From Bacteroidota bacterium (GTDB lineage Bacteria; Bacteroidota; Bacteroidia; UKL13-3): DNA of 44,447 nucleotides. The stretch's first letter is position 1. Each line of letters starts with the position of its first letter. Under the pieces are notes generated by a model. That model saw nothing but the letters and a program-made list of their open reading frames with translations, did not search any database and had not been told where the DNA came from. Location of the stretch: positions 1-44,447 of the forward strand of contig CANHBJ010000005.1 in the NCBI GenBank assembly GCA_947459075.1, read 5' to 3'. A program made the position numbers and the translations under genes. This document shows, one piece after another, positions 907-33,249 of the stretch.

Positions 907-2250
907 ATGTCTCAATTAATCATAGGTCATGTTTCTGAAAACTCAACAAAAATTTGGGTTAGGGGTGTTGCCAATAATGAAAGTACTGCAACACTTACAG
1001 CACATATTACATTAAAAAGCGACTTCCAAAACATCACGCAAAACCTTACCATTTATAAACACGATAATTTTATAGGGGTATTTGAATTTACCGATTTAAA
1101 CCCTGCCGACAGCGGATTTTTCAGGGTGATGTATATGGTAGAGGTTGTATTTAAAGACATTGCCAGAGTACCCATTGGCGGATATGGAAGAGGTAGTTTT
1201 AATACTGTTCCTAGAGTTAATTATCCAATTAGTTTTTTATTAGGTAGTAATTTTTTAAACCGAAATGAGGATGATGCTAAACGTGTTTTTAAAAACTTGA
1301 GTAACATACGCAAGGTTGATAAGCCCTCTTTTATGATACATGCGGGAAATCAAATATACATTGATGCTCCATCTCAAAAAACACCCATACTAGCCGATTT
1401 ATACAAACGTAGATATAACGAAGCCTGGAAAACGAGAGAAGCAAGTGAGTTTTTGGGTAGAATTGCCAATTATAGCGCAATAAATGACCATGAGCTTTAC
1501 TTTAAATTTGCAAATGATACTGAGTACGATTTTAAACCAGCATCTTATTATTTAATGGAAGCGCTTCCATCCTATCACAGTTACCAACATTTAAAAAATC
1601 CTCATACCTACGGAATAAACAAGCTTTACTACAACTATAATTATGCAGGAAATGCCTTTTTTGTTATGGATGTTAGGACAGAGCGCTACCAATTTGGCAA
1701 ACGACAAATGATTGGTAGTGAGCAAATGGAGGATTTCAAAAGTTGGTTGTTGGATAATAAAGATATACCAAAATTTGTAGTAACTGCTGTGCCTTTTGCT
1801 GCCATAAAGGAAACATATTTTAGTGAGTACTGGAGTTCGGAAACTTACGTAAAACAGAAAGAAGAAATATTGCTTTTTATTAAGGCGAATAGCATAGGAA
1901 AATTGGTATTTTTAACCGGACAAGGTAATGCCTCTTTACATAGCACAATAACAATTAAAAAAGGCAATGAAGAACCGTTAGTTATTCATGAATTAATGTG
2001 TGGAGCACTATCCCATTACGAAGCTGCTATATGTAATTATGACGATTTTGTTTGGCAACAACGCAACAGAATTGCAGATTTAGAATACGAGTTTAAATTA
2101 CAAAGCGGCAACGGTGAGAAGGATCCTTCAGTGATGAGCGTATCGTTTGAAAACGGAATATTAAACTACAAGGCATACTCTACTCGACACATCATGAATG
2201 AGGATGAGGTTCCACCAATTATTTTATCTGGTAGTATTAAACTTAATTAA
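907..2250 (+). CDS. PhoD-like protein with degraded metal-binding site (probable pseudoenzyme)
   Basis: The 447-residue protein has the layout of PhoD-type metallophosphatases: an N-terminal beta domain (IIGHVSENSTKIWVRG, residues 5-20) and a C-terminal phosphatase-like domain. The family motifs can be aligned but key residues are changed. GSC of the iron-ligand motif reads GSN (N115), GD is GN (HAGNQIY, N148), and the late GDVH reads GQGN (339-341). The NDHE motif (193-196) and the DxR of MDVRTER (255-257) are kept. There is no signal peptide, unlike most PhoD proteins, so it is probably cytoplasmic. An intact paralogue lies at 16227-17270. It is likely non-catalytic or uses another chemistry; its role is unknown. 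Its stop codon overlaps the stop of the convergent plug gene by 4 nt. Confidence 0.7.
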   Translation: MSQLIIGHVSENSTKIWVRGVANNESTATLTAHITLKSDFQNITQNLTIYKHDNFIGVFEFTDLNPADSGFFRVMYMVEVVFKDIARVPIGGYGRGSFNTVPRVNYPISFLLGSNFLNRNEDDAKRVFKNLSNIRKVDKPSFMIHAGNQIYIDAPSQKTPILADLYKRRYNEAWKTREASEFLGRIANYSAINDHELYFKFANDTEYDFKPASYYLMEALPSYHSYQHLKNPHTYGINKLYYNYNYAGNAFFVMDVRTERYQFGKRQMIGSEQMEDFKSWLLDNKDIPKFVVTAVPFAAIKETYFSEYWSSETYVKQKEEILLFIKANSIGKLVFLTGQGNASLHSTITIKKGNEEPLVIHELMCGALSHYEAAICNYDDFVWQQRNRIADLEYEFKLQSGNGEKDPSVMSVSFENGILNYKAYSTRHIMNEDEVPPIILSGSIKLN

Positions 2251-3500
2251 AATTGAGTTTTAATTAAGCGACTTCCTACTAGCTCATCATATTTGAATTG
2301 TATGTTTTTATGGTATACCAATACCATATACTCATTTTCGGTTTGTGCATGAGATCCTTCAATAATTGTATCATCTATTTTACCTTCGGCAGTTTGAGTA
2401 GCATATTTATATTCGTATCGCCCTTGTTTTAGCTGTACCTCCAACTCATATCGCAACCTGCTTTTGTTGTAATACATTTTGTATTCAGGTAACAAGCGCC
2501 AATCAGTGAATTCTCCATATACATAAACATCTTCGTTAAGAGGTGCTAAACTCAACAAATAAAAGTTAATAAAAGCATAATCTCCATCAATGCCGCCATT
2601 TTGCCCATCTCTATTGGCTATAACACGTTTACCATTAAAATCTAAGTAGTTAAAATACTGCTTACTGCCTCTCGATTCTTCATAATTTAAAAAACAATGG
2701 TATACACTATCTAAAGTTTTAGCACGTACATTTTGACTAAACTGCCTTAAACTTCTAATATCAAAAAAACGAAACTCATTACCTCCAGAAAATAAAGTTT
2801 GATCGAAATAATTATAGTCTAAGGTATTATCGCGAATGAATAATGGTTTTAAGCCTATAATTGAGTTGTCCCATTGGCCATTCTGCATCAACACTACATT
2901 AATGTCTTTGTATGGATCGGGTACATTAAAACCACGGTAGTTTACACTAAAACCAACCTCTTGCTTAGTAAAGCGATGTTGAGCTAAAGTGGCTGGCTTT
3001 GCTGTTCCTTCGATAGTAACTGCAGGATTAAGTATCATCATTCTACGCGTTAGCACCAAATCCGATTCATCAAAATTTCTGTATACTTTAATTAAGTAAT
3101 TACCTGCAAAAATGGGTTTCATGTTTTCGTTAGGTAAGAGCAAATTATAATGCACATACCTTACGTAGGTATTGGTAGAATATTTAAAATCATTAATATT
3201 ATCAAAAGTTAAACCTCTTAAATATTCATTTTGGCTAAGTGCTGTCGGGTTCCAACTTGCATCACAGTGAATCAATGTGTACTGAAAATAATCATTCTTA
3301 TTGCCTAATATATCAAAACTCAACTCCAATTGATCGTTGGTGTTTAAAGCAATAATCGGATAACGGTCATCAGTACCCGATTTTGTTAATAAAACTGATT
3401 TAACTCGCGCATCAAAAATTTGATTATCGTAACGCAATTCATCTGCACTTAATAAAGTGGAGTATATAGTAGCAATAACAAAGACAATTTTTTTAATCAT
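2247..3500 (-). CDS. Type IX secretion system plug protein (DUF5103)
   Basis: The 417-residue protein begins with a signal peptide (MIKKIVFVIATIYSTLLSADE) and is otherwise beta-rich with motifs typical of DUF5103, for example LRYDNQIFDARVKSV near the N terminus and the Y-x-C-DASWNPT stretch around residues 75-90. Proteins of this family include the Plug subunit that closes the periplasmic end of the SprA translocon of the T9SS in Flavobacterium. It therefore probably acts at the outer membrane in protein export; two T9SS cargo proteins are encoded in this window (34658-37228 and 43865-44447). The ATG overlaps the end of the upstream ABC-F gene by 8 nt, so the two are co-transcribed and probably translationally coupled. 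The C-terminal part (YVYGEFTDWR) looks like an Ig/CBM48-type beta-sandwich. Confidence 0.85.
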   Translation of the reverse strand: MIKKIVFVIATIYSTLLSADELRYDNQIFDARVKSVLLTKSGTDDRYPIIALNTNDQLELSFDILGNKNDYFQYTLIHCDASWNPTALSQNEYLRGLTFDNINDFKYSTNTYVRYVHYNLLLPNENMKPIFAGNYLIKVYRNFDESDLVLTRRMMILNPAVTIEGTAKPATLAQHRFTKQEVGFSVNYRGFNVPDPYKDINVVLMQNGQWDNSIIGLKPLFIRDNTLDYNYFDQTLFSGGNEFRFFDIRSLRQFSQNVRAKTLDSVYHCFLNYEESRGSKQYFNYLDFNGKRVIANRDGQNGGIDGDYAFINFYLLSLAPLNEDVYVYGEFTDWRLLPEYKMYYNKSRLRYELEVQLKQGRYEYKYATQTAEGKIDDTIIEGSHAQTENEYMVLVYHKNIQFKYDELVGSRLIKTQF

Positions 3501-22094: not shown

Positions 22095-23207
22095 ATGACA
22101 AGATTAATTACTGTCACCATATTGGCAATATGCTTCACTGCGTGTTCAATTGAAAGTAAAAATGACAAAGTAAAAGAAACATTTTTAACCACAAGTCCAA
22201 TCATAATCGACACAAGCTACATTGTAGAGTATACTGCTGATATTCATTCATTACAAAATGTAGAAATACGAACCAAGGTTAAAGGACACCTTGAAAATAT
22301 ATATGTTGACGAAGGAGACGCAGTAAAAGCTGGGCAATTACTTTTTAGTATTAATAAAGATGCATTTAAGCTTGAACTATTAAAAGCACAAGCAAATTTA
22401 AAATCTGCAATAGCACAATTGAAAATCGATCAATTGGAAATGGAAAACGTAAAGAAATTGTATGAAAAAAACATCGTTTCAAAAACCGAATACGACAAGG
22501 CAAGTGCATTATTGGATGCTGCTAATGCTACAATAGAAGAGGCAAAATCTGAAGAACAAGTTGCTAAGCTGCACTTATCTTTTGCCGAAATAAGAGCGCC
22601 ATTTGATGGAACTATAGACCGTATTCCATACAAAAAAGGAAGTATGATTGACGAGGGTACTCTGCTCACTACCATCTCTAACAACAAGGAGGTATTTGCC
22701 TATTTTAATGTATCTGAAAAAGAATACTTGAATATCAGGGCTCAAAAAGCATCTATCGAAAAAAATAAAATCACTTTAATGCTTGCAAACAATCAACCTC
22801 ACCAATACAAGGGCACAATAGAAACCATTGATGGAGAATTTGATAAAAACACTGGAAACATTGCTTTTAGAGCAAAATTCGCAAATCCAGAAATCTTACT
22901 TAAACATGGATCAAGCGGTAAAGTTCAGCTTATCAATGAACTTGAAAATGCATTGGTGATTCCTCAAAAATCAACATTTGAAATACAAGACAAATATTAT
23001 GTATATGTAATTGATGCCAACAATACCGTAAAGGCTAAAAACATTGTGGTGAAGCAACGTTTATCACATTTGTATGTAATAGAAAATAATCTTTCCACCA
23101 AAGATAAAATTGTATTTGAAGGTATTCAAAATGTAAAGGATGGGGATCAAATAAAAGATGAGTTTGTTTCGATGAGACAAATTATTTCAAAATTTAATTC
23201 GCAATAA
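22095..23207 (+). CDS. RND efflux periplasmic adaptor (membrane fusion lipoprotein)
   Basis: The 370-residue protein begins with a lipoprotein signal (MTRLITVTILAICFTAC, lipidated C17). It follows the AcrA/MexA layout: split lipoyl halves (VEIRTKVKGHLENIYVDEGDAVKAGQLLF around residues 56-84, and AEIRAPFDGTIDRIPYKKGSMIDEGTLL near 165-193), a helical hairpin between them (residues 95-155), then beta-barrel and membrane-proximal domains. It links the inner-membrane pump to the outer-membrane channel. The stop is 2 nt before the ATG of the pump gene, so the three genes form one operon. Confidence 0.94.
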   Translation: MTRLITVTILAICFTACSIESKNDKVKETFLTTSPIIIDTSYIVEYTADIHSLQNVEIRTKVKGHLENIYVDEGDAVKAGQLLFSINKDAFKLELLKAQANLKSAIAQLKIDQLEMENVKKLYEKNIVSKTEYDKASALLDAANATIEEAKSEEQVAKLHLSFAEIRAPFDGTIDRIPYKKGSMIDEGTLLTTISNNKEVFAYFNVSEKEYLNIRAQKASIEKNKITLMLANNQPHQYKGTIETIDGEFDKNTGNIAFRAKFANPEILLKHGSSGKVQLINELENALVIPQKSTFEIQDKYYVYVIDANNTVKAKNIVVKQRLSHLYVIENNLSTKDKIVFEGIQNVKDGDQIKDEFVSMRQIISKFNSQ

Positions 23208-23209
23208 CC

Positions 23210-26200
23210 ATGTTGAATCAATTCATAAATAGACCTGTATTATCCATTGTAATTTCATTATTGATTACCATACTGGGCGGTTTGGCTATTACCCAATTGC
23301 CAATGACACAATTCCCAGATATTGCACCGCCTGAGGTAACCGTTACCACTAAATATACTGGTGCTAACGCAGAATCCTGTATCAAGGCAGTAGTTACACC
23401 GCTAGAAAGAGCCATCAATGGTGTTCCAGGTATGGCTTACATGTCATCTGTATCAGGAAATGATGGTACAAGCGTAATCAATATTGTTTTTAAGGCCGGA
23501 ACCGACCCTGAAATTGCTGCCGTAAACGTGCAAAATAGAGCCGCATCAGTATTGGATGAGATGCCAGAAGAGGTTATTAAATCGGGAGTTATTGTAGAGA
23601 AGGTTCAGAACAGTATGCTTTTGTATTTAAACTTATTAAGTACGGATAAAAACTTAGATGAAAAATTTTTATATAACTATACAGACATTAATATATTACC
23701 GGAGTTAAAGCGTATTGAAGGTGTTGGTTTTGCTGACATCATGGGTCAGCGTGAATATGCAATGCGTGTTTGGTTGAACCCCATTAAAATGAATACTTAT
23801 GAAATATCAGCCGAAGATGTGGTTCAATGTTTAAAAGAACAAAATGTAGAAGCTGCACCTGGTAAAGTTGGTGAAAGTTCGGGTAAAAAAAATCAATCGT
23901 TACAATACGTTATTAAATACTCTGGTAAGTATAATACCAAAGAACAATATGAAAACGTAGTTATAAAGAGAAATTCGGATGGCCAAATATTGCATTTAAA
24001 AGACATTGCAGAAATTGAATTTGGATCATTAGATTACGATATTCTTTCAAAGGAAAATGGAAACCCATCGGCTGCAATTGTACTAAAACAAAGACCAGGC
24101 AGTAATGCAAGTGATGTTATTAAAAACATCAAAATAAAAATGGAAGAATTGCAAAAGAGTTTTCCAGCTGGTGTAACATATACAACAAGTTACGATGTAT
24201 CTAGCTTTTTAGATGCTTCAATTCATGAAGTTTTAAAAACGTTATTAGAAGCATTTTTATTGGTAGCCTTAATTGTATTTATTTTCTTAGGTGATTTTCG
24301 TTCAACATTGATTCCTGCCATCGCAGTTCCTGTTTCATTAATTGGTACTTTCTTTTTTATGCAGTTGTTTGGCTTCTCCATCAATCTGATTACGCTATTT
24401 GCATTGGTATTAGCTATTGGTATTGTGGTAGACAATGCCATTGTAGTGGTTGAAGCAGTTCACGCCAAAATGGAAGAACATCATTTAGAAGCTAAAGAAG
24501 CAACAGAATTGGCTATGAAAGAAATTGGCGGTGCCATTATAGCCATCACCTTGGTGATGTCGGCAGTATTTATTCCAGTAGCTTTTATGAGCGGACCTGT
24601 TGGTATTTTTTACCGTCAGTTCTCGGTAACTTTAGCCATTTCTATTGTGCTCTCAGGTATCAGTGCACTAACTTTAACTCCCGCTTTATGCGCTATTTTA
24701 CTGAAGAGTGCACATTTAAAACCTAAGAAAAAAAATGCACTAAATTCATTTCTAAATGCCTTTAACAGTAATTACAACAAGTTAGCAGGCGGTTACCAAA
24801 ATATACTAATTAAGATTGTCAACAGACGGGTAATAACTATTATTTCTTTGCTTGTATTTTCTTTCTTCACATGGGGAATTGCCAATTTTTTACCATCTGG
24901 TTTTATCCCCAACGAAGACCAGGGAACAATCTATACAAGTGTTACTACTCCATCTGGTGCAACTTTGGAACGTACAGAAGAAGTTTTGAATGAAATACAA
25001 TCTGTAACCTCTCAAATAGAAGAAATAGCCTCTGTATCTACTTTGGTAGGATATAACTTTGTAACTGATGGCACAGGTGCATCATATGGTATGAAACTAA
25101 TGAGTTTAAAAAACTGGAGCGATAGAAAAAAAACTGCTCAAGAGATAATTGATATATTAAAAGAAAAAACACGCTATATCAAGGATGCAAAAATTGAATT
25201 CTTCACTCCTCCTCCAGTGCCTGGTTATGGCAACTCAAGTGGTTTTGAATTACGGATATTAGATAAAACAGGTAAAGGCGACTTAAAAAAGATAGAAGAA
25301 GTAGCACATCATTTTTCTGCTGAGTTGAATAAACGACCTGAAATAAAAAATGCTTTTTCCTCGTTTGATGCCAGTTTCCCTCAATATTTAATAAATATAG
25401 ATAATACAAAAGCAGCGCAAAAAGGGGTAGTTATAAGAGATGTATTGAGTACTTTACAAACATTCTTAGGAAGTGATTATGCAACCAATTTTATACGTTT
25501 TGGGCAAATGTATAAGGTAATGGTACAAGCGGCACCAGAATACAGGGCCAAACCTGATGACTTATTAAAATTAACAGTAAAAAATCAGGATGGAAATATG
25601 GTAGCCATATCGTCCATATTAACTATACAAAAGGTTTATGGACCTGAGCAGGTAACACGATATAATATGTATCCATCGGCAATGGTAAATGGTGAACCGC
25701 AAACAGGCTTTAGCAGCGGGCAAGCTATTGATGCCATTAAAGATGTAGCAAATGAGAAATTACCCCAAGGTTATGGGTTTGATTGGGCAGGATCTTCAAA
25801 AGAGCAAGCTAACGCAGGTAATGAAGCTATTTATATTTTCTTGATATGCCTCCTATTTGTATACCTAATCCTAGCAGCACAATACGAAAGCTTTATTCTA
25901 CCCTTACCAATTATTTTATCCTTACCACCAGGAATTTTTGGTGCATTATTTCTGTTATCAGTATTAGGTTTAGAAAACAACATATACGCACAAGTTGCAA
26001 TGGTAATGCTAATTGGTTTATTGGGTAAAAATGCAGTGTTAATTGTGGAGTTTGCATTACAAAAAAAGAAAGAAGGATTATCACCTTATAAAGCCGCTAT
26101 TGAAGGAGCAACACTAAGATTAAGACCAATCTTAATGACCTCATTTGCATTTATTGCCGGATTACTTCCTCTACTATTTGCAAGTGGTGCAGGTGCTATT

Positions 26201-26374
26201 GGCAACCGAACCATTGGTGCTGCTTCGGCAGGTGGAATGCTTTTCGGAACCGTATTTGGTGTGCTTATTATACCTGGTTTATATTACATATTCGAAACCA
26301 TTTCTACCAAATTTGTACAACTTAAAACATTAGAAAAAAAATCTTTAACTGAAGATATAAATCAACATGAATAA
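23210..26374 (+). CDS. RND multidrug efflux pump, HAE1 type (AcrB/MexB-like)
   Basis: The 1054-residue inner-membrane pump starts MLNQFINRPVLSIVISLLI, as HAE1 pumps do, and has twelve hydrophobic segments and two large periplasmic loops. In the proton relay, TM4 reads IGIVVDNAIVVVE: D408 matches AcrB D407 while N409 replaces AcrB D408; TM10 keeps the lysine in GKNAVLIVEF (K940). HAE1 members expel drugs, dyes, detergents or solvents. The 3' end overlaps the outer-membrane channel gene by 8 nt (ATGAATAA). No TetR or two-component regulator is found next to the operon. Confidence 0.95.
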   Translation: MLNQFINRPVLSIVISLLITILGGLAITQLPMTQFPDIAPPEVTVTTKYTGANAESCIKAVVTPLERAINGVPGMAYMSSVSGNDGTSVINIVFKAGTDPEIAAVNVQNRAASVLDEMPEEVIKSGVIVEKVQNSMLLYLNLLSTDKNLDEKFLYNYTDINILPELKRIEGVGFADIMGQREYAMRVWLNPIKMNTYEISAEDVVQCLKEQNVEAAPGKVGESSGKKNQSLQYVIKYSGKYNTKEQYENVVIKRNSDGQILHLKDIAEIEFGSLDYDILSKENGNPSAAIVLKQRPGSNASDVIKNIKIKMEELQKSFPAGVTYTTSYDVSSFLDASIHEVLKTLLEAFLLVALIVFIFLGDFRSTLIPAIAVPVSLIGTFFFMQLFGFSINLITLFALVLAIGIVVDNAIVVVEAVHAKMEEHHLEAKEATELAMKEIGGAIIAITLVMSAVFIPVAFMSGPVGIFYRQFSVTLAISIVLSGISALTLTPALCAILLKSAHLKPKKKNALNSFLNAFNSNYNKLAGGYQNILIKIVNRRVITIISLLVFSFFTWGIANFLPSGFIPNEDQGTIYTSVTTPSGATLERTEEVLNEIQSVTSQIEEIASVSTLVGYNFVTDGTGASYGMKLMSLKNWSDRKKTAQEIIDILKEKTRYIKDAKIEFFTPPPVPGYGNSSGFELRILDKTGKGDLKKIEEVAHHFSAELNKRPEIKNAFSSFDASFPQYLINIDNTKAAQKGVVIRDVLSTLQTFLGSDYATNFIRFGQMYKVMVQAAPEYRAKPDDLLKLTVKNQDGNMVAISSILTIQKVYGPEQVTRYNMYPSAMVNGEPQTGFSSGQAIDAIKDVANEKLPQGYGFDWAGSSKEQANAGNEAIYIFLICLLFVYLILAAQYESFILPLPIILSLPPGIFGALFLLSVLGLENNIYAQVAMVMLIGLLGKNAVLIVEFALQKKKEGLSPYKAAIEGATLRLRPILMTSFAFIAGLLPLLFASGAGAIGNRTIGAASAGGMLFGTVFGVLIIPGLYYIFETISTKFVQLKTLEKKSLTEDINQHE

Positions 26375-27800
26375 TTTTAAAAAATGGTTTTATAGTATTC
26401 TTTTATGGTTTGGCGTTATGCATATTGGATGCATAACACCAGAATATAATATTGAGAAAACAAAAAGATTATTGCCCCCAGCTTATTCCTTTGCAAATGA
26501 TAGCAACAATTCGGCAGACATAAAATGGAAAGATTTTTTTGCTGATAAAAATTTAGTATCGCTTATAGATACAGCGCTCAAAAACAATTTTGATGTTCTC
26601 ATGACTTTACAAAAAATTGAAGTCGCAAGAAACGATTTGCAATTTACCAAAGGTGCCATGTTACCAACAGTAAGCTCAAACTTTAGTTATTTACAGCGCA
26701 AATTCGGCTATTACACTATGGATGATGCAGGAAACCGTGTTACAGAAATTACCCCAGGAAAAATGATACCAACCAATTTACCAGATTATTTCGTTGGGCT
26801 ACAAACCAATTGGGAAATTGATGTTTGGGGTAAATTACGTAATAAAAAGAAGGCAGCATTTGCCAGGTATTTAAGCAGCATTGAAGGTACTAATTTAGTT
26901 ATTACTAATTTAGTTTCCGAAATTGCAATTGCCTATTATGAATTGATTGCTTTAGATCATGAATTAGATATTATCCGAGAAACAATAAAATTGGAGCAAG
27001 ATGCTTTAGCAATAATTAAAGTACAGAAAGATGCGGGTGTAGCAAATGATTTAGCTGTAAAACAATTCGAAGCGGAAGTGCTAAATTCAATTGGTATGGA
27101 ATTTGAAACGCTTCAAAAAATCACCGAAACAGAAAACAAAATTAATTTCCTATTGGGTAGATTTCCGCAAAAAATTAAAAGAGAAAAAGCTAATTTTACT
27201 TCACAAATACCAACACAAATCAAATCAGGTATTCCATCTCAACTACTCAAAAACCGACCTGATATTAAGCAAGCCGAATTAGAATTATTAGCCACAAAAT
27301 TTGATGTAAGTGCAGCCAAAGCTGCGTTTTATCCATCATTCAATATTACTGGGTTATTAGGGTTTCAGGCATTTAACACATCTTTTTTATTTACATCTCC
27401 ACAATCTTTGGCATATAGTTTATTGGGAGGATTAACTACTCCATTGCTAAACCGAAATGCAATAAAATCTCAATTCAAAAATGCCAAAGCGAATCAACTT
27501 GAGGCAATGTATAATTACCAAAAAACTATTTTGAATGGTTATGTGGAAGTTTCTAACGAAATTTCAAGTATCAAAAATTTGGAACTAATACAAAACAATA
27601 AAACCAAAGAAGTTGATGCATTGACAAAATCAATTGATATTTCAAACGACTTATTCAAATCAGGTCGTGCAACTTATTTTGAAGTGTTAATGGTGCAAAA
27701 CCGTTCCTTACAATCAAAATTAGAACTAATTAATACGAAAAAACGCCAATACAATGCAACCATAAACATATACAAAGCACTTGGAGGAGGATGGAAATAG
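26367..27800 (+). CDS. Outer-membrane efflux channel (TolC/OprM/NodT family)
   Basis: The 477-residue protein begins with a signal sequence followed by a cysteine (HIGC, C22), consistent with a lipoprotein as in OprM, though the lipobox is weak. It has two outer-membrane efflux repeats: WWEIDVWGKLR-type motif (QTNWEIDVWGKLRNKKKAA, residues 150-168), helical stretches (NLVSEIAIAYYELIALDHEL), RPDIKQAELELLATKFDVSAAKAAFYPS (residues 296-323) and the C-terminal GRATYFEVLMVQNRSL. It completes the tripartite pump with the two genes upstream, which it overlaps by 8 nt. Confidence 0.93.
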   Translation: MNNFKKWFYSILLWFGVMHIGCITPEYNIEKTKRLLPPAYSFANDSNNSADIKWKDFFADKNLVSLIDTALKNNFDVLMTLQKIEVARNDLQFTKGAMLPTVSSNFSYLQRKFGYYTMDDAGNRVTEITPGKMIPTNLPDYFVGLQTNWEIDVWGKLRNKKKAAFARYLSSIEGTNLVITNLVSEIAIAYYELIALDHELDIIRETIKLEQDALAIIKVQKDAGVANDLAVKQFEAEVLNSIGMEFETLQKITETENKINFLLGRFPQKIKREKANFTSQIPTQIKSGIPSQLLKNRPDIKQAELELLATKFDVSAAKAAFYPSFNITGLLGFQAFNTSFLFTSPQSLAYSLLGGLTTPLLNRNAIKSQFKNAKANQLEAMYNYQKTILNGYVEVSNEISSIKNLELIQNNKTKEVDALTKSIDISNDLFKSGRATYFEVLMVQNRSLQSKLELINTKKRQYNATINIYKALGGGWK

Positions 27801-28782: not shown

Positions 28783-31443
28783 ATGCTAACACGTGTAATT
28801 GTTCTTAATAGTAAGGTATATGGTAAAGCCGAAATAAGGCTTGACGACTGCGATAGCTTACAATTGGTGGGACCAAACAATATTGGTAAAAGTACCCTTA
28901 TTTATGCACTTAACTTTTTGTTTATCATCGATGGACAAAAAATGAGTTTTAGTGGTAACCGTAAGGGCGACAAAGAAACCATTCACCATTATTTCCCAAA
29001 CCACAACCAAAGTTTTATTGTTTTTGAGGTTTTTAAGAAATCTTACTACAGCATTATTGTTAAACGCGATAGCGACAGTAACCTTGAGTACTATAAGTTT
29101 GATAGCGAATATAAAGAGGAATTTTTTGTTGATACCGATAAACGTTTGTTAAAGTTTGAAGAGGTAAAAGAAAAAATTGCGGCCAGTGGTTTACCGCTTG
29201 AGCAATTTAAAGACAAACGTGAGGTGTTTCAGTTTGTTTACCAACGTGGTAAACGTAACAATGGTGTAGTTTGGCTTGATGACAGTGTTCGCAGCGAAGG
29301 AATAAGCAATAACTTTTCGCGTATTTACCGCTACTTAATTAACACCAAATTAATTACCAATAAAAACCTTAAAGAGGCACTTATTGTAGCCGATAACCGC
29401 GAAAACGAAACCTTAAACTTCTCGCAAAAAAATAAAAAAGACATTAACGACTTAAAACGTGTGAACAACGAAATTCGTAACCTTAAATCGGTAAAGAATG
29501 AGTTTGACGAATTCCGCGAATTGGTTAGTCAGTACAATGCCAAAGCACGCATTATTGGCGAGCTGTTTTATGGTTTTGAGAAAAACTATAAACACACCAT
29601 GCCCGAGTTGCAAGTTCAATTGCACGAAAAAGATAAAGCCATTGGCAGGTTAAATACAGAAATGAACGAGGAGTTAATTCCTGCAAAAGCCGATTTAGAC
29701 CGTAAAATTGGTGGTAAAGAAGCTGAGATTAACTCGCGTACACAGCTACTTCACGAAAAAGAAAACGAGATTAAAGAAATTGATGCCTACGAACCAATTA
29801 ATATTTTAAACGAGCAATTGGCCAACTTCGATCAGCAACGTAAAAATATTGAAAGCCGAATAACCATGGCCGAGTTGCAGCGTCTAAACAGCCAGCAAAT
29901 AGAAAATAAAATTGTGCGCATTAACGATCAAATTGCGCGCGTTGAAATGCAGGTTAAAAATTACAGTAACCTACTTATTAATAAAATTTCAGGCTCGGTT
30001 GAAAATCGTAAATTGTTAAATTCCATTTTAAGTGAGCAAGTAAGCAGTTTACCTGGCGACCAAGTGATGAAGCAAATTCACAAAATAAGCCAAACGCTTA
30101 GTGTATTTGATGGGCAGATTGACATTTCTAAAAACATTGTTATCAAAGACTTTAAGAATGTTGATGAATTAAAAGAAGAATTAGCTTCACTAAAAGAAGA
30201 TAAAATACAGCAAGAAAGCTTATTAAAAGTTGTTCAGGATTTAGAAGCATCAAACAACGAGTTACAAAGAATTGGTGCAGAAATTGAAACCATTAAAAAC
30301 AAAATTGTTCGCATAAAAGCTAAACCTACTTTGGTAAAGTCGTTAGAGCGTTTAAAAGCCGATTTGAATGACTTGATGGTAGAAAAGGAGAAATATGAAA
30401 CCGAGCAAAAACAAATTGCTAAAACCATTGCACGTAAAAGTAATGAGTTGCGCGATTTGTTAGATGAAAAGCAAAAACGCCAAGAACGCATCAACAAGCT
30501 GATTGAAATGAAGCATGAAATTGATGAATTAGGCTTGGTTGGCGATGAGTTTGAAACCAACGAAAGCTTGGATCAACTCTACAATAAAATTAAATTAAAC
30601 TGGCAAGACCGCATCACCATCAAATCAAACAAAGACCATTTATTTGAAAAATTGCGCGATAAATTACAAAGCACCTTTGCTGATGAAAACGATTTTATTA
30701 AATACGTAGAAGAAGAAGTTGCTTTAATTGAAGACAAAGAACGTAGTGTTCAGTCTTTGCTTGAAAGTATATCAACCCAATTTGCCAATCCAGCATACAC
30801 TTTACTTAAGCGTTACGAAGAATTTAAGGAGTTTTTATACAATAAATTTAATACCAAACTTTCGCAAACACGTATTTCTGATATCGAATCATTAACCATT
30901 GAGTTAATTGACAACAAGCGATTGGTTGAAGAAGTTCGTAAGATTAGCCAAATTCAACAAATTAGCGGACAACTGATGTTTGAGTTTGATAACAGCGAAA
31001 ACTTAAAGGTGCTTGATCATTACTTAGAAAGCGGACAAAAAATTGAGTTTGATGATTTGTTTGATATTACCTTACACTTAAGCCGTAAAGGAAGCACCAA
31101 ACAAGTAGATTTAAGTCAACAAATTGAAAGTGATGGTACAGATAAAATGATTCGTTTGGTGATTGTAATGAACATCATTAACCGATTAGCTGTTGCCGAT
31201 CATGAAAACCGTATTGCCTTATTTATTGATGAGGTTGCTACCATTGATAAGCAAAATCGTCCGGAGTTAGTGCGTTTCTGTAAAGAGCATTTCTTTATCC
31301 CGATTTTTGCTGCCCCTGATGCTGTGCCGGGCTTTGGTAAATACTATTTCATTTTCCGCAGTTCGGGTAAAATCAATATCAACGAAAAAACCAACGCGGC
31401 TTATGGCGAGGTGGTTGATAAAAGTTTAAAATTAGAGGTGTAA
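28783..31443 (+). CDS. SMC-like ATPase of a condensin-type operon (MksB/JetC-like)
   Basis: The 886-residue protein is an SMC/Rad50-type ATPase. The N-terminal half-ATPase carries Walker A GPNNIGKST (30-38). Long coiled coils occupy about residues 230-400 and 465-690, with only a short non-coil break between (about 400-465), suggesting a MukB-like mini-hinge rather than a full SMC hinge. The C-terminal half has a signature-like segment QIESDGTDKMIRLVI (S783-D784-G785-T786 in place of LSGGQ) and Walker B IALFIDEVATID (D816-E817). It is shorter than typical MukB/MksB. It is followed by kleisin-like and KITE-like genes, so it should form a DNA-entrapping or loop-extruding complex. Whether that acts on the chromosome or against foreign DNA is open. 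Confidence 0.78.
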   Translation: MLTRVIVLNSKVYGKAEIRLDDCDSLQLVGPNNIGKSTLIYALNFLFIIDGQKMSFSGNRKGDKETIHHYFPNHNQSFIVFEVFKKSYYSIIVKRDSDSNLEYYKFDSEYKEEFFVDTDKRLLKFEEVKEKIAASGLPLEQFKDKREVFQFVYQRGKRNNGVVWLDDSVRSEGISNNFSRIYRYLINTKLITNKNLKEALIVADNRENETLNFSQKNKKDINDLKRVNNEIRNLKSVKNEFDEFRELVSQYNAKARIIGELFYGFEKNYKHTMPELQVQLHEKDKAIGRLNTEMNEELIPAKADLDRKIGGKEAEINSRTQLLHEKENEIKEIDAYEPINILNEQLANFDQQRKNIESRITMAELQRLNSQQIENKIVRINDQIARVEMQVKNYSNLLINKISGSVENRKLLNSILSEQVSSLPGDQVMKQIHKISQTLSVFDGQIDISKNIVIKDFKNVDELKEELASLKEDKIQQESLLKVVQDLEASNNELQRIGAEIETIKNKIVRIKAKPTLVKSLERLKADLNDLMVEKEKYETEQKQIAKTIARKSNELRDLLDEKQKRQERINKLIEMKHEIDELGLVGDEFETNESLDQLYNKIKLNWQDRITIKSNKDHLFEKLRDKLQSTFADENDFIKYVEEEVALIEDKERSVQSLLESISTQFANPAYTLLKRYEEFKEFLYNKFNTKLSQTRISDIESLTIELIDNKRLVEEVRKISQIQQISGQLMFEFDNSENLKVLDHYLESGQKIEFDDLFDITLHLSRKGSTKQVDLSQQIESDGTDKMIRLVIVMNIINRLAVADHENRIALFIDEVATIDKQNRPELVRFCKEHFFIPIFAAPDAVPGFGKYYFIFRSSGKININEKTNAAYGEVVDKSLKLEV

Positions 31444-31463
31444 CTGTTATCTAAATTATAAAT

Positions 31464-32660
31464 ATGAGAACAGAACCACGTACCATATTAAATTTCCTCT
31501 CCAATTACTTTGATATCATCAAGGAATTGTTTGACGTGCAGTTGAAAGACGGCCTAGTTAGACGAGAGGATTTGAATGCTATTTTAGCTGAACACGACAG
31601 CGATATTTTAAATAAGCTGATTGAGTATAAATTCTTTAAAAAGATTGGAGACGACTTTGAAATACGCCCCATGTATTTTAAGTTTTTGGAATTTATTTTA
31701 AGTGAGTTTAAACCGCTATTGCCCGAAACCATCGAGAAATATGAACACTCGGTAACATCGTTATTTAAAAAAATTAAAGAGGGCATTAACAAAGACCGTA
31801 ACATTTTATTACAACGTATCAGCGATTTAAATAATGAGGTGCGCGATTTTACAGAAGCTGTAGAGAAAAATACACTTCGTTTAATTGCCGAAACCAAAGA
31901 GTTAAAATCTAACGTAGATAAAATAGATTACCGCGAGAAAGTACGTAAGGCCAGTTTCTGGATTGATTACTACATCACTCCATTAAATACTATTTTAGAT
32001 GTGAGTAATTCAAACTCCATTACCAATAGATTGCTTGATATTTCGCAATACATTAACATACGCAGGTTAAATTTTGATGATGAATTGGCTCGCCAACAAT
32101 TTGAGAAATTGTATACTTTTTTGGTGCAAACCAATGATGATTTACTTCGTCAATCAAAAATACTAACTAACGAATTATTGCCATTGATTGAGCGCATAAG
32201 AAGCGAATCAATGATATTAACAGGTTGGATTGAGTTTTTGAAAAACCCGAACAAAACAGAAACTCCATTTGTACCAAAATCTATTAGGGCTTACCCATAT
32301 AACAATGCCATGTATTTTAACTCGTTAGAGTATGTGCAACAATACATGCAAAATGATGATGTTTATTTGGAAGACCCTAACTTAAGTGCAAGCGATAAAT
32401 GGATTTTTAATAAAGAATTTTACCGCGAACAGTTGATGAAAGAATTACCTATGCCTAACTTTTTTGAGTGGGCAGGTGTTACTTTAAGAAGCGAATACAA
32501 GGATATTGAAACCGAGAAATTTTTCTCCCTCTCTACCCTATTATTTGAAGATGACATTGAATTAGAGTTCGATCCAACTGCCGATAGGCAAGTGATTAGA
32601 ACTTCAGATATGAATTTACGCGTACCAAAAATTAAAATTAAACGACATGGACTTTCCTAG
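31464..32660 (+). CDS. Kleisin-like subunit (MukF/MksF/JetA-like)
   Basis: The family was not recognised directly; the call rests on layout and context. The 398-residue protein starts with a winged-helix-like region (residues 1-85, VRREDLNAILAEHDSDILNKLIEYKFFKKIGDDFEIRP), then a long helical stretch (about 90-165, KKIKEGINKDRNILLQRISDLNNEVRDF), a second mostly helical part to about 260, and a C-terminal region rich in beta and acidic residues. MukF and JetA have N-terminal winged-helix and central helical domains of this kind. It lies 20 nt after the SMC gene and overlaps the next gene by 14 nt, which argues for a stoichiometric complex. The C-terminal segment would be expected to bind the SMC head. 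Confidence 0.55.
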   Translation: MRTEPRTILNFLSNYFDIIKELFDVQLKDGLVRREDLNAILAEHDSDILNKLIEYKFFKKIGDDFEIRPMYFKFLEFILSEFKPLLPETIEKYEHSVTSLFKKIKEGINKDRNILLQRISDLNNEVRDFTEAVEKNTLRLIAETKELKSNVDKIDYREKVRKASFWIDYYITPLNTILDVSNSNSITNRLLDISQYINIRRLNFDDELARQQFEKLYTFLVQTNDDLLRQSKILTNELLPLIERIRSESMILTGWIEFLKNPNKTETPFVPKSIRAYPYNNAMYFNSLEYVQQYMQNDDVYLEDPNLSASDKWIFNKEFYREQLMKELPMPNFFEWAGVTLRSEYKDIETEKFFSLSTLLFEDDIELEFDPTADRQVIRTSDMNLRVPKIKIKRHGLS

Positions 32661-33189
32661 ATATCATAAAGAAATTGTAGGCGATTTATTGGATGGCAAG
32701 TTTGTTTTAGCCACCGATGCCAAGTTTATTGAATTAAAGAATAATGCCGATTTTTATGGCAAGTTTTTTAAAGAAACATTTGATTTCTACCTCGACATTA
32801 AATCGGATTATGCTTATTTAATTAGCGAAGAAACCATGGAAATGTTGAGCCGAGATATTTGTATTTTTATTGGTTTGCTTTGTTACGAGTTAGATAAAGA
32901 AGGTAAAAACTTTTTGGATGAAATACAGTATGCCGAGTTTGATTCCGAGATGATAGATAACTTGTTAGACAACTCATCGTACACCGATTTAATTATGAAC
33001 AACAACCAGCTTAAAAACAGCGAAGCACGCAAGCAATTTTTAGGCACGCTAAATCGCAGAAACATTATAGACCGCAACAGCGACAAAAAGTTTACGTTTA
33101 CACCTGCTTACAAAGTGTTTATGGATTTTGCCAAGAATTTTGCCAAAGGCAAATTGGCTACTAACAGCGTAGAAGAAGATAACGAGTAG
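32647..33189 (+). CDS. KITE-like subunit (MukE/MksE/JetB-like)
   Basis: This 180-residue acidic protein overlaps the kleisin-like gene by 14 nt. It looks like two small winged-helix units: residues 1-75 (YHKEIVGDLLDGKFVLATDAKFIELKNN) and 95-165 (NSEARKQFLGTLNRRNIIDRNSDKKFTFTPAYKVFMDFAK), the second with a strand-turn-strand wing. Size, tandem winged helices and operon position fit MksE/MukE/JetB, which bind the kleisin and DNA. Identity is inferred from context; the sequence alone is not diagnostic. No JetD/MksG-like topoisomerase-primase (Toprim) nuclease gene follows; a strong terminator comes 24 nt later. Confidence 0.52.
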   Translation: MDFPRYHKEIVGDLLDGKFVLATDAKFIELKNNADFYGKFFKETFDFYLDIKSDYAYLISEETMEMLSRDICIFIGLLCYELDKEGKNFLDEIQYAEFDSEMIDNLLDNSSYTDLIMNNNQLKNSEARKQFLGTLNRRNIIDRNSDKKFTFTPAYKVFMDFAKNFAKGKLATNSVEEDNE

Positions 33190-33213: not shown

Positions 33214-33249
33214 AAAACGCGCGGGTTGCCTTGGCAACCCGCGCGTTTT
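33214..33249 (+). terminator. Strong GC-rich terminator after the SMC operon
   Basis: A perfect 17-bp inverted repeat (arms 33214-33230 and 33233-33249) with a 2-nt centre, so in practice a CTTG tetraloop. The stem core is GCGCGGGTTGCC and ends in TTTTAATTT, giving the T-run. It begins 24 nt after the stop of the KITE-like gene. It is much richer in GC than its surroundings. Confidence 0.88.

Follow-up and report, generated by a model that had tools for sequence, protein, structure and literature searches.

The window, by which we mean the whole 44,447-nt stretch of Bacteroidota DNA analysed, contains an operon of three genes encoding an SMC-type ATPase, a predicted kleisin and a KITE subunit (Table 1). 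A first-pass annotation, made from the sequence alone, had described three ORFs, and its coordinates, sizes, 20-nt gap and 14-nt overlap (the latter between the kleisin and KITE ORFs) were all reproduced; the terminator that it placed after the third gene corresponds to a strong hairpin. Another 20 loci, from three bacterial families, have the genes in the same order SMC-kleisin-KITE in varying surroundings, and the operon is under strong purifying selection, with dN/dS about 0.02-0.04 (0.021, 0.026 and 0.042 for the three genes, compared with the nearest relative). Because the order recurs and dN/dS is low, we regard the three ORFs as real, conserved genes.

Table 1. Features of the SMC-kleisin-KITE operon (positions in the window)
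Feature	Position	Strand	Basis or remark
SMC ATPase gene (MukB/JetC-like, compact, 886 aa)	28783..31443	+	ORF call; AF2 model; Foldseek
Walker A GPNNIGKS, SMC residues 30-37	28870..28893	+	N32, N33, G35, K36 and S37 invariant (17 and 45 homologues)
Putative hinge region, about residues 396-460	29968..30162	+	Low model confidence, local conservation (LLINKIS..., FDGEIDI); approximate boundary
ABC signature region SDGTD, residues 783-787	31129..31143	+	SDGTD in 100/105 homologues
Walker B IALFIDE, D816 and E817	31213..31233	+	D816 and E817 invariant
SMC-kleisin gap, 20 nt	31444..31463	+	Position occupied by a JetD-like Toprim nuclease gene in scattered relatives
Kleisin gene (MukF/JetA-like, 398 aa)	31464..32660	+	Predicted model; Foldseek
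KITE gene (MksE, 180 aa)	32647..33189	+	Pfam PF21980
Terminator hairpin, 16 bp, 4-nt loop, T tails	33214..33249	+	3' of the KITE gene

No fourth conserved neighbour was found in the 20 loci, and the three genes therefore form a complete unit. Recurrent opposite-strand ORFs inside the operon genes were dismissed as shadow ORFs. A DUF808 gene accompanies the operon in close congeners only, and a small membrane protein encoded upstream does not recur in other loci; neither was retained as an operon member. Elsewhere in the window, an efflux operon (HlyD-type, RND-size and outer-membrane-factor genes, 22095-27800) lies just upstream, and a type 9 secretion plug protein (2247-3500) is an ordinary neighbour.

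Subunit folds and family affiliation

Structures were predicted from alignments of homologues, as profile searches found no solved relative. The AF2 model of the SMC (pLDDT 74) shows a head and a centrally placed hinge region together with two long arms of coiled coil (helices 215-359 and 488-628), each arm segment having about 190 residues. In Foldseek searches of the PDB, its first four matches were all MukB (best E 1e-15), followed by Rad50 at rank 5 and, further down, by Wadjet-II and Wadjet-I JetC (JetC E 4e-10). The predicted SMC fold is thus that of MukB, MksB and JetC. Over whole chains, the TM-scores of the structural comparisons are low, at 0.2-0.3. The ATPase motifs GPNNIGKS, SDGTD and FIDE are intact in nearly all homologues; the usual ABC signature is of the SGGE/Q type, from which SDGTD departs.

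In the model of the kleisin (pLDDT 75.5), both ends fold into winged helices, and long central helices and a disordered linker (residues 272-313) lie between them. Among 350,542 PDB chains, its two best Foldseek matches were MukF (9gm7_C, probability 0.98) and JetA (8q72_E, probability 0.90), with a marginal E of 2.4e-3, and its predicted fold is that of MukF, MksF and JetA. The winged-helix kleisin fold anticipated by the first-pass annotation for the 398-residue protein is therefore present in the model, and the structural comparison with MukB/F and JetA/C that it suggested leads to MukB and JetC for the SMC and to MukF and JetA for the kleisin. By profile match, the KITE protein belongs to the named Pfam family MksE (PF21980; 74.8 bits over residues 6-161, cut-off 27).

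At the sequence level, affiliations are less specific. Pfam and NCBIfam searches gave no MukB or MksB/F match for the SMC and the kleisin, and a PDB profile search found no solved relative of either; the matches of the SMC were weak and generic (AAA_21, AAA_29). The PADLOC Jet models (types I-III) did not match the kleisin or the KITE, and the SMC reached JetC1 at E 0.017 only. Comparisons by hhalign with MksB and MksF of other Bacteroidota were not significant, and a 73% match in profile comparison with Bacteroidota MksB/MksF and Wadjet I proteins was discarded, as it covered coiled coil only. Neither the Smc hinge (PF06470) nor ScpA (PF02616) had a match in the window's own genome or family. 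Taken together, the KITE profile, the models and the profile searches support the proposal of a divergent condensin-type SMC/kleisin/KITE complex, encoded SMC first and nuclease-free. The SMC and the kleisin lack a specific family match; the KITE falls inside MksE.

The closest parallels are with MksBEF (mksFEB or mksFEBG, in Pseudomonas and Corynebacterium), which likewise combines SMC, kleisin and KITE, has a short-armed SMC and exists in nuclease-free and nuclease-bearing versions; the KITE of the window scores above the MksE cut-off. However, genes follow the order SMC-(nuclease)-kleisin-KITE in the window family and kleisin-KITE-SMC-nuclease in MksBEF (PMC10123090), the SMC has 886 aa compared with 1111 aa for MksB of C. 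glutamicum (PMC10123090), the kleisin lacks a Pfam match, and the nuclease of the relatives has about 265 aa. Wadjet (JetABCD) shares the same subunit classes by predicted fold and a Toprim nuclease, JetD-like in a few relatives of the window operon, but the latter is itself nuclease-free, circularly permuted in gene order and distributed vertically as a core component. MukBEF provides the best structural match for both SMC and kleisin. It is the sole condensin in enterobacteria, just as the window family is the only recognisable condensin in its host genomes. It differs in showing no sequence-level similarity, in its far longer SMC, its phylum and its gene order. With Smc-ScpAB, the family shares a presumed function as chromosome condensin, but it has no Smc hinge or ScpA match and the two systems hardly co-occur.

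MksF-MksE-MksB operons were also observed in other Bacteroidota (L115:5383-10584, L118:8252-13679 and L119:7812-13542), with no adjacent JetD seen. As in the window, their KITE falls in Pfam MksE, whereas their gene order is canonical and their SMCs have 1051-1204 aa; the SMC of L115 scores above the cut-off for the MukB N-terminal domain. With their MukB-like SMC, these operons add another candidate for a condensin without nuclease in Bacteroidota.

A JetD-like nuclease gene in scattered relatives

The window operon contains no nuclease gene, as the first-pass annotation had noted. Its suggestion of a distant effector finds no support in the window's own genome: neither JetD_C (PF09983) nor a profile of the nuclease from related operons had a match in the assembly (87% complete). 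In the other operon-bearing members of the genus, both profiles reached chance-level scores at most. Among the homologues, a Toprim JetD-like gene of 261-279 aa lies exactly between SMC and kleisin in 5 out of 71 complete named operons, far from the majority that would have placed the family within a nuclease-bearing system. The absence of a nuclease is thus the common state, although it does not extend to the entire family. Nuclease-bearing operons occur in Pontibacter vulgaris, a Cyclobacteriaceae MAG, three genomes of the window's family (G017, G019 and G031) and, as an additional copy of the system, G247; in the operon tree, the nuclease is found on six tips that do not cluster. Pattern matching located the Toprim-like DYD..G motif in all nine nuclease copies and the E-N motif in eight of them. 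Two copies exceed the JetD_C cut-off of 22 bits, namely that of L215 (26.7 bits) and that of G031 (27.9 bits), and the other copies tested score below it; of the five named operons, one is above the cut-off. The interposed gene therefore resembles a JetD-like Toprim nuclease.

Pairs of these nucleases are only 31-39% identical, even where the SMCs share 74% identity (L047-L215). Because they are about equally distant even in that case, nuclease swapping or fast evolution also occurs. In L154, which is closely related to the nuclease-bearing L158, all that remains of the nuclease in the gap is its final 55 codons (54.5% identity, E 1e-15). The Toprim part is gone, and the nuclease was thus lost here by truncation. 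Other long SMC-kleisin gaps (L212, L172, L176, L191 and others) contained no recognisable nuclease relic. At L178, 4.5 kb with two secreted-protein genes (C-terminal sorting-type domains; L178:8689-13205) splits the SMC-kleisin junction, and this insert is unrelated to the nuclease. Weak nuclease-profile matches in frames of about 580 aa probably correspond to the DnaG Toprim domain rather than to JetD.

The nuclease-bearing second copy of G247 (L125:3966-10160), a genome that also has another kleisin copy, has an HTH/WYL-like regulator on its upstream side and SbcD/SbcC-like genes on its downstream side, surroundings that resemble a defence island.

Distribution and relation to Smc-ScpAB

Among named genomes, freshwater Bacteroidota MAGs and Bacteroidetes bacterium UKL13-3 (CP012155.1) come closest to the window's own. 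Within the window's family, the kleisin was found in 31 out of 35 genomes and the SMC in 40 out of 47. Kleisin distances track those of RpoB (r 0.82, Mantel p 2e-4), and of 18 kleisin splits with good support, the RpoB tree shares 13 and conflicts with two to three. The system is near-core, single-copy and vertically inherited in the family. One strongly divergent copy (L053 in G021, 36-39% identity) is a probable horizontal replacement within the family; its kleisin placement conflicts with the RpoB tree, and transfer therefore occurs. The phage, plasmid and viral-contig collections searched contained no match to the system. A typical Bacteroidota operon was seen at L208, titled Candidatus Competibacteraceae (Pseudomonadota); the same operon is present in G102 of the window's class, and the title probably reflects a mislabelled bin.

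ScpA and the Smc hinge were detected in none of 35 family genomes, whereas the control genomes expected to have them were positive in both searches. As the related genomes are mostly MAGs, absences are partly assembly-limited. The SMC is missing from 7 out of 47 family genomes that are at least 90% complete. In a family devoid of ScpA, the complex is therefore losable, and this combination is the main counter-evidence to a central chromosome role.

In a sample of 247 genomes of the class, the kleisin was detected in 32 and ScpA in 46, with a single overlap (G242, which carries the four-gene form). This anticorrelation is phylogenetically clustered and, counted by family, the chance of no overlap is about 0.055. 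MksE of any type was found in 80 genomes; 118 had ScpA or MksE, and 129, about half at the cut-offs used, had neither. The latter figure fits a Hi-C study that reported no known condensin in gut Bacteroidota, yet arm alignment in one species, and inferred unidentified SMC complexes (PMC10197239). The control genome Bacteroides ihuae had no match for ScpA, the Smc hinge or MksE.

The survey beside canonical smc-scpAB proposed in the first-pass annotation also covered the 34 genomes behind the named loci. ScpA was absent from all 29 nuclease-free genomes and present in two of the five nuclease-bearing ones (Pontibacter and Cyclobacteriaceae; Fisher p 0.018, uncorrected for relatedness). Such a distribution would be expected if Smc-ScpAB is replaced by the nuclease-free form but can coexist with the nuclease-bearing one, the latter acting in defence. 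The coupling is loose, given that ScpA is also missing from the three genomes of the window's family that have the nuclease. Two other genomes of this family, G018 (L122:8111-14666) and G034 (L123:4994-11582), carry an ordinary Wadjet besides the three-gene operon, that of L122 being type I by its DUF3375 kleisin and DUF3322 plus JetD_C nuclease. Such co-presence argues that the three-gene operon does another job.

Proposed function and evolutionary direction

From these comparisons, we consider it probable that the operon codes for a compact and divergent complex of the MksBEF/Wadjet superfamily, a loop extruder that is normally nuclease-free, and, jointly, that this complex fills the condensin role in lineages without Smc-ScpAB, where no other condensin is recognisable. 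Both its parts and its probable mechanism are of a kind already known. By homology of the parts to MukBEF and JetABC, two SMC subunits would be joined at the hinge, the kleisin would bridge their heads with KITE subunits sitting on its linker, and the assembled ring would extrude DNA loops in an ATP-driven manner. We infer that the nuclease-free form acts on the chromosome, in compaction and segregation, and that the four-gene relatives may be plasmid-cutting versions of the same machine, in which cutting would follow once a small circle has been extruded completely, a mechanism put forward for JetABCD (PMC10586767). The first-pass annotation had left the choice between a chromosome organiser and an actor on foreign DNA; the former is favoured because of the core, vertical distribution in lineages without Smc-ScpAB.

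The complex could instead be a defence system without a nuclease of its own, whose ring would either trap or silence circular DNA of foreign origin or recruit a nuclease encoded elsewhere. Trapping or silencing of viral DNA has been proposed for Smc5/6. The JetD-like nuclease of the relatives and the absence of the operon from some family members are in line with such a role, as are the plasmid-defence members of the superfamily (PMC10586767). We nevertheless judge it improbable, given near-core, single-copy and vertical inheritance under strong purifying selection, neighbours that are neither defence-like nor conserved, the lack of a related nuclease elsewhere in the window's own genome, and absence from phage and plasmid collections. 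A Rad50/SbcC- or RecN-like repair ATPase, to which the generic sequence matches of the SMC and the fifth rank of Rad50 might point, is very unlikely and already disfavoured: an MksE-family KITE and a MukF/JetA-like kleisin share the operon in all homologues, and MukB holds the first four fold ranks.

The condensin reading of the present function is compatible with a history that began with the three-gene form and in which a JetD-like cassette entered the position between SMC and kleisin on several occasions. The scattering of the nuclease over six tips, and its low identities at L047-L215, as expected if the genes were brought in separately or swapped, make this a real possibility, although we lean against it. 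The insertion point is the same and the nuclease homologous each time, fast nuclease evolution could yield the same identities, and the C-terminal relic of L154, whose close relative still has an intact nuclease gene, indicates that loss happens.

We found no published description of the window family in the literature searched, which consisted chiefly of open-access papers. As far as that literature shows, the compact divergent family and its gene order are new, as is the finding that these Bacteroidota have no other recognisable condensin, and so are the repeated presence, absence and decay of a nuclease at one operon position. At 886 residues, the SMC is unusually small for a subject of structural and single-molecule studies. 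Closely related operons differ in whether they have the nuclease, one of them with a decayed copy, and the relationship can therefore be tested through the addition or removal of a single gene. For a part of the phylum, Bacteroides itself not included, the family offers a concrete condensin candidate. Tentatively, and with the balance close to even, these Bacteroidota may possess a new compact SMC family that is the sole chromosome condensin of several lineages and that has repeatedly switched between plasmid-cutting defence and condensin by losing, perhaps regaining, a JetD-like nuclease at one fixed position.
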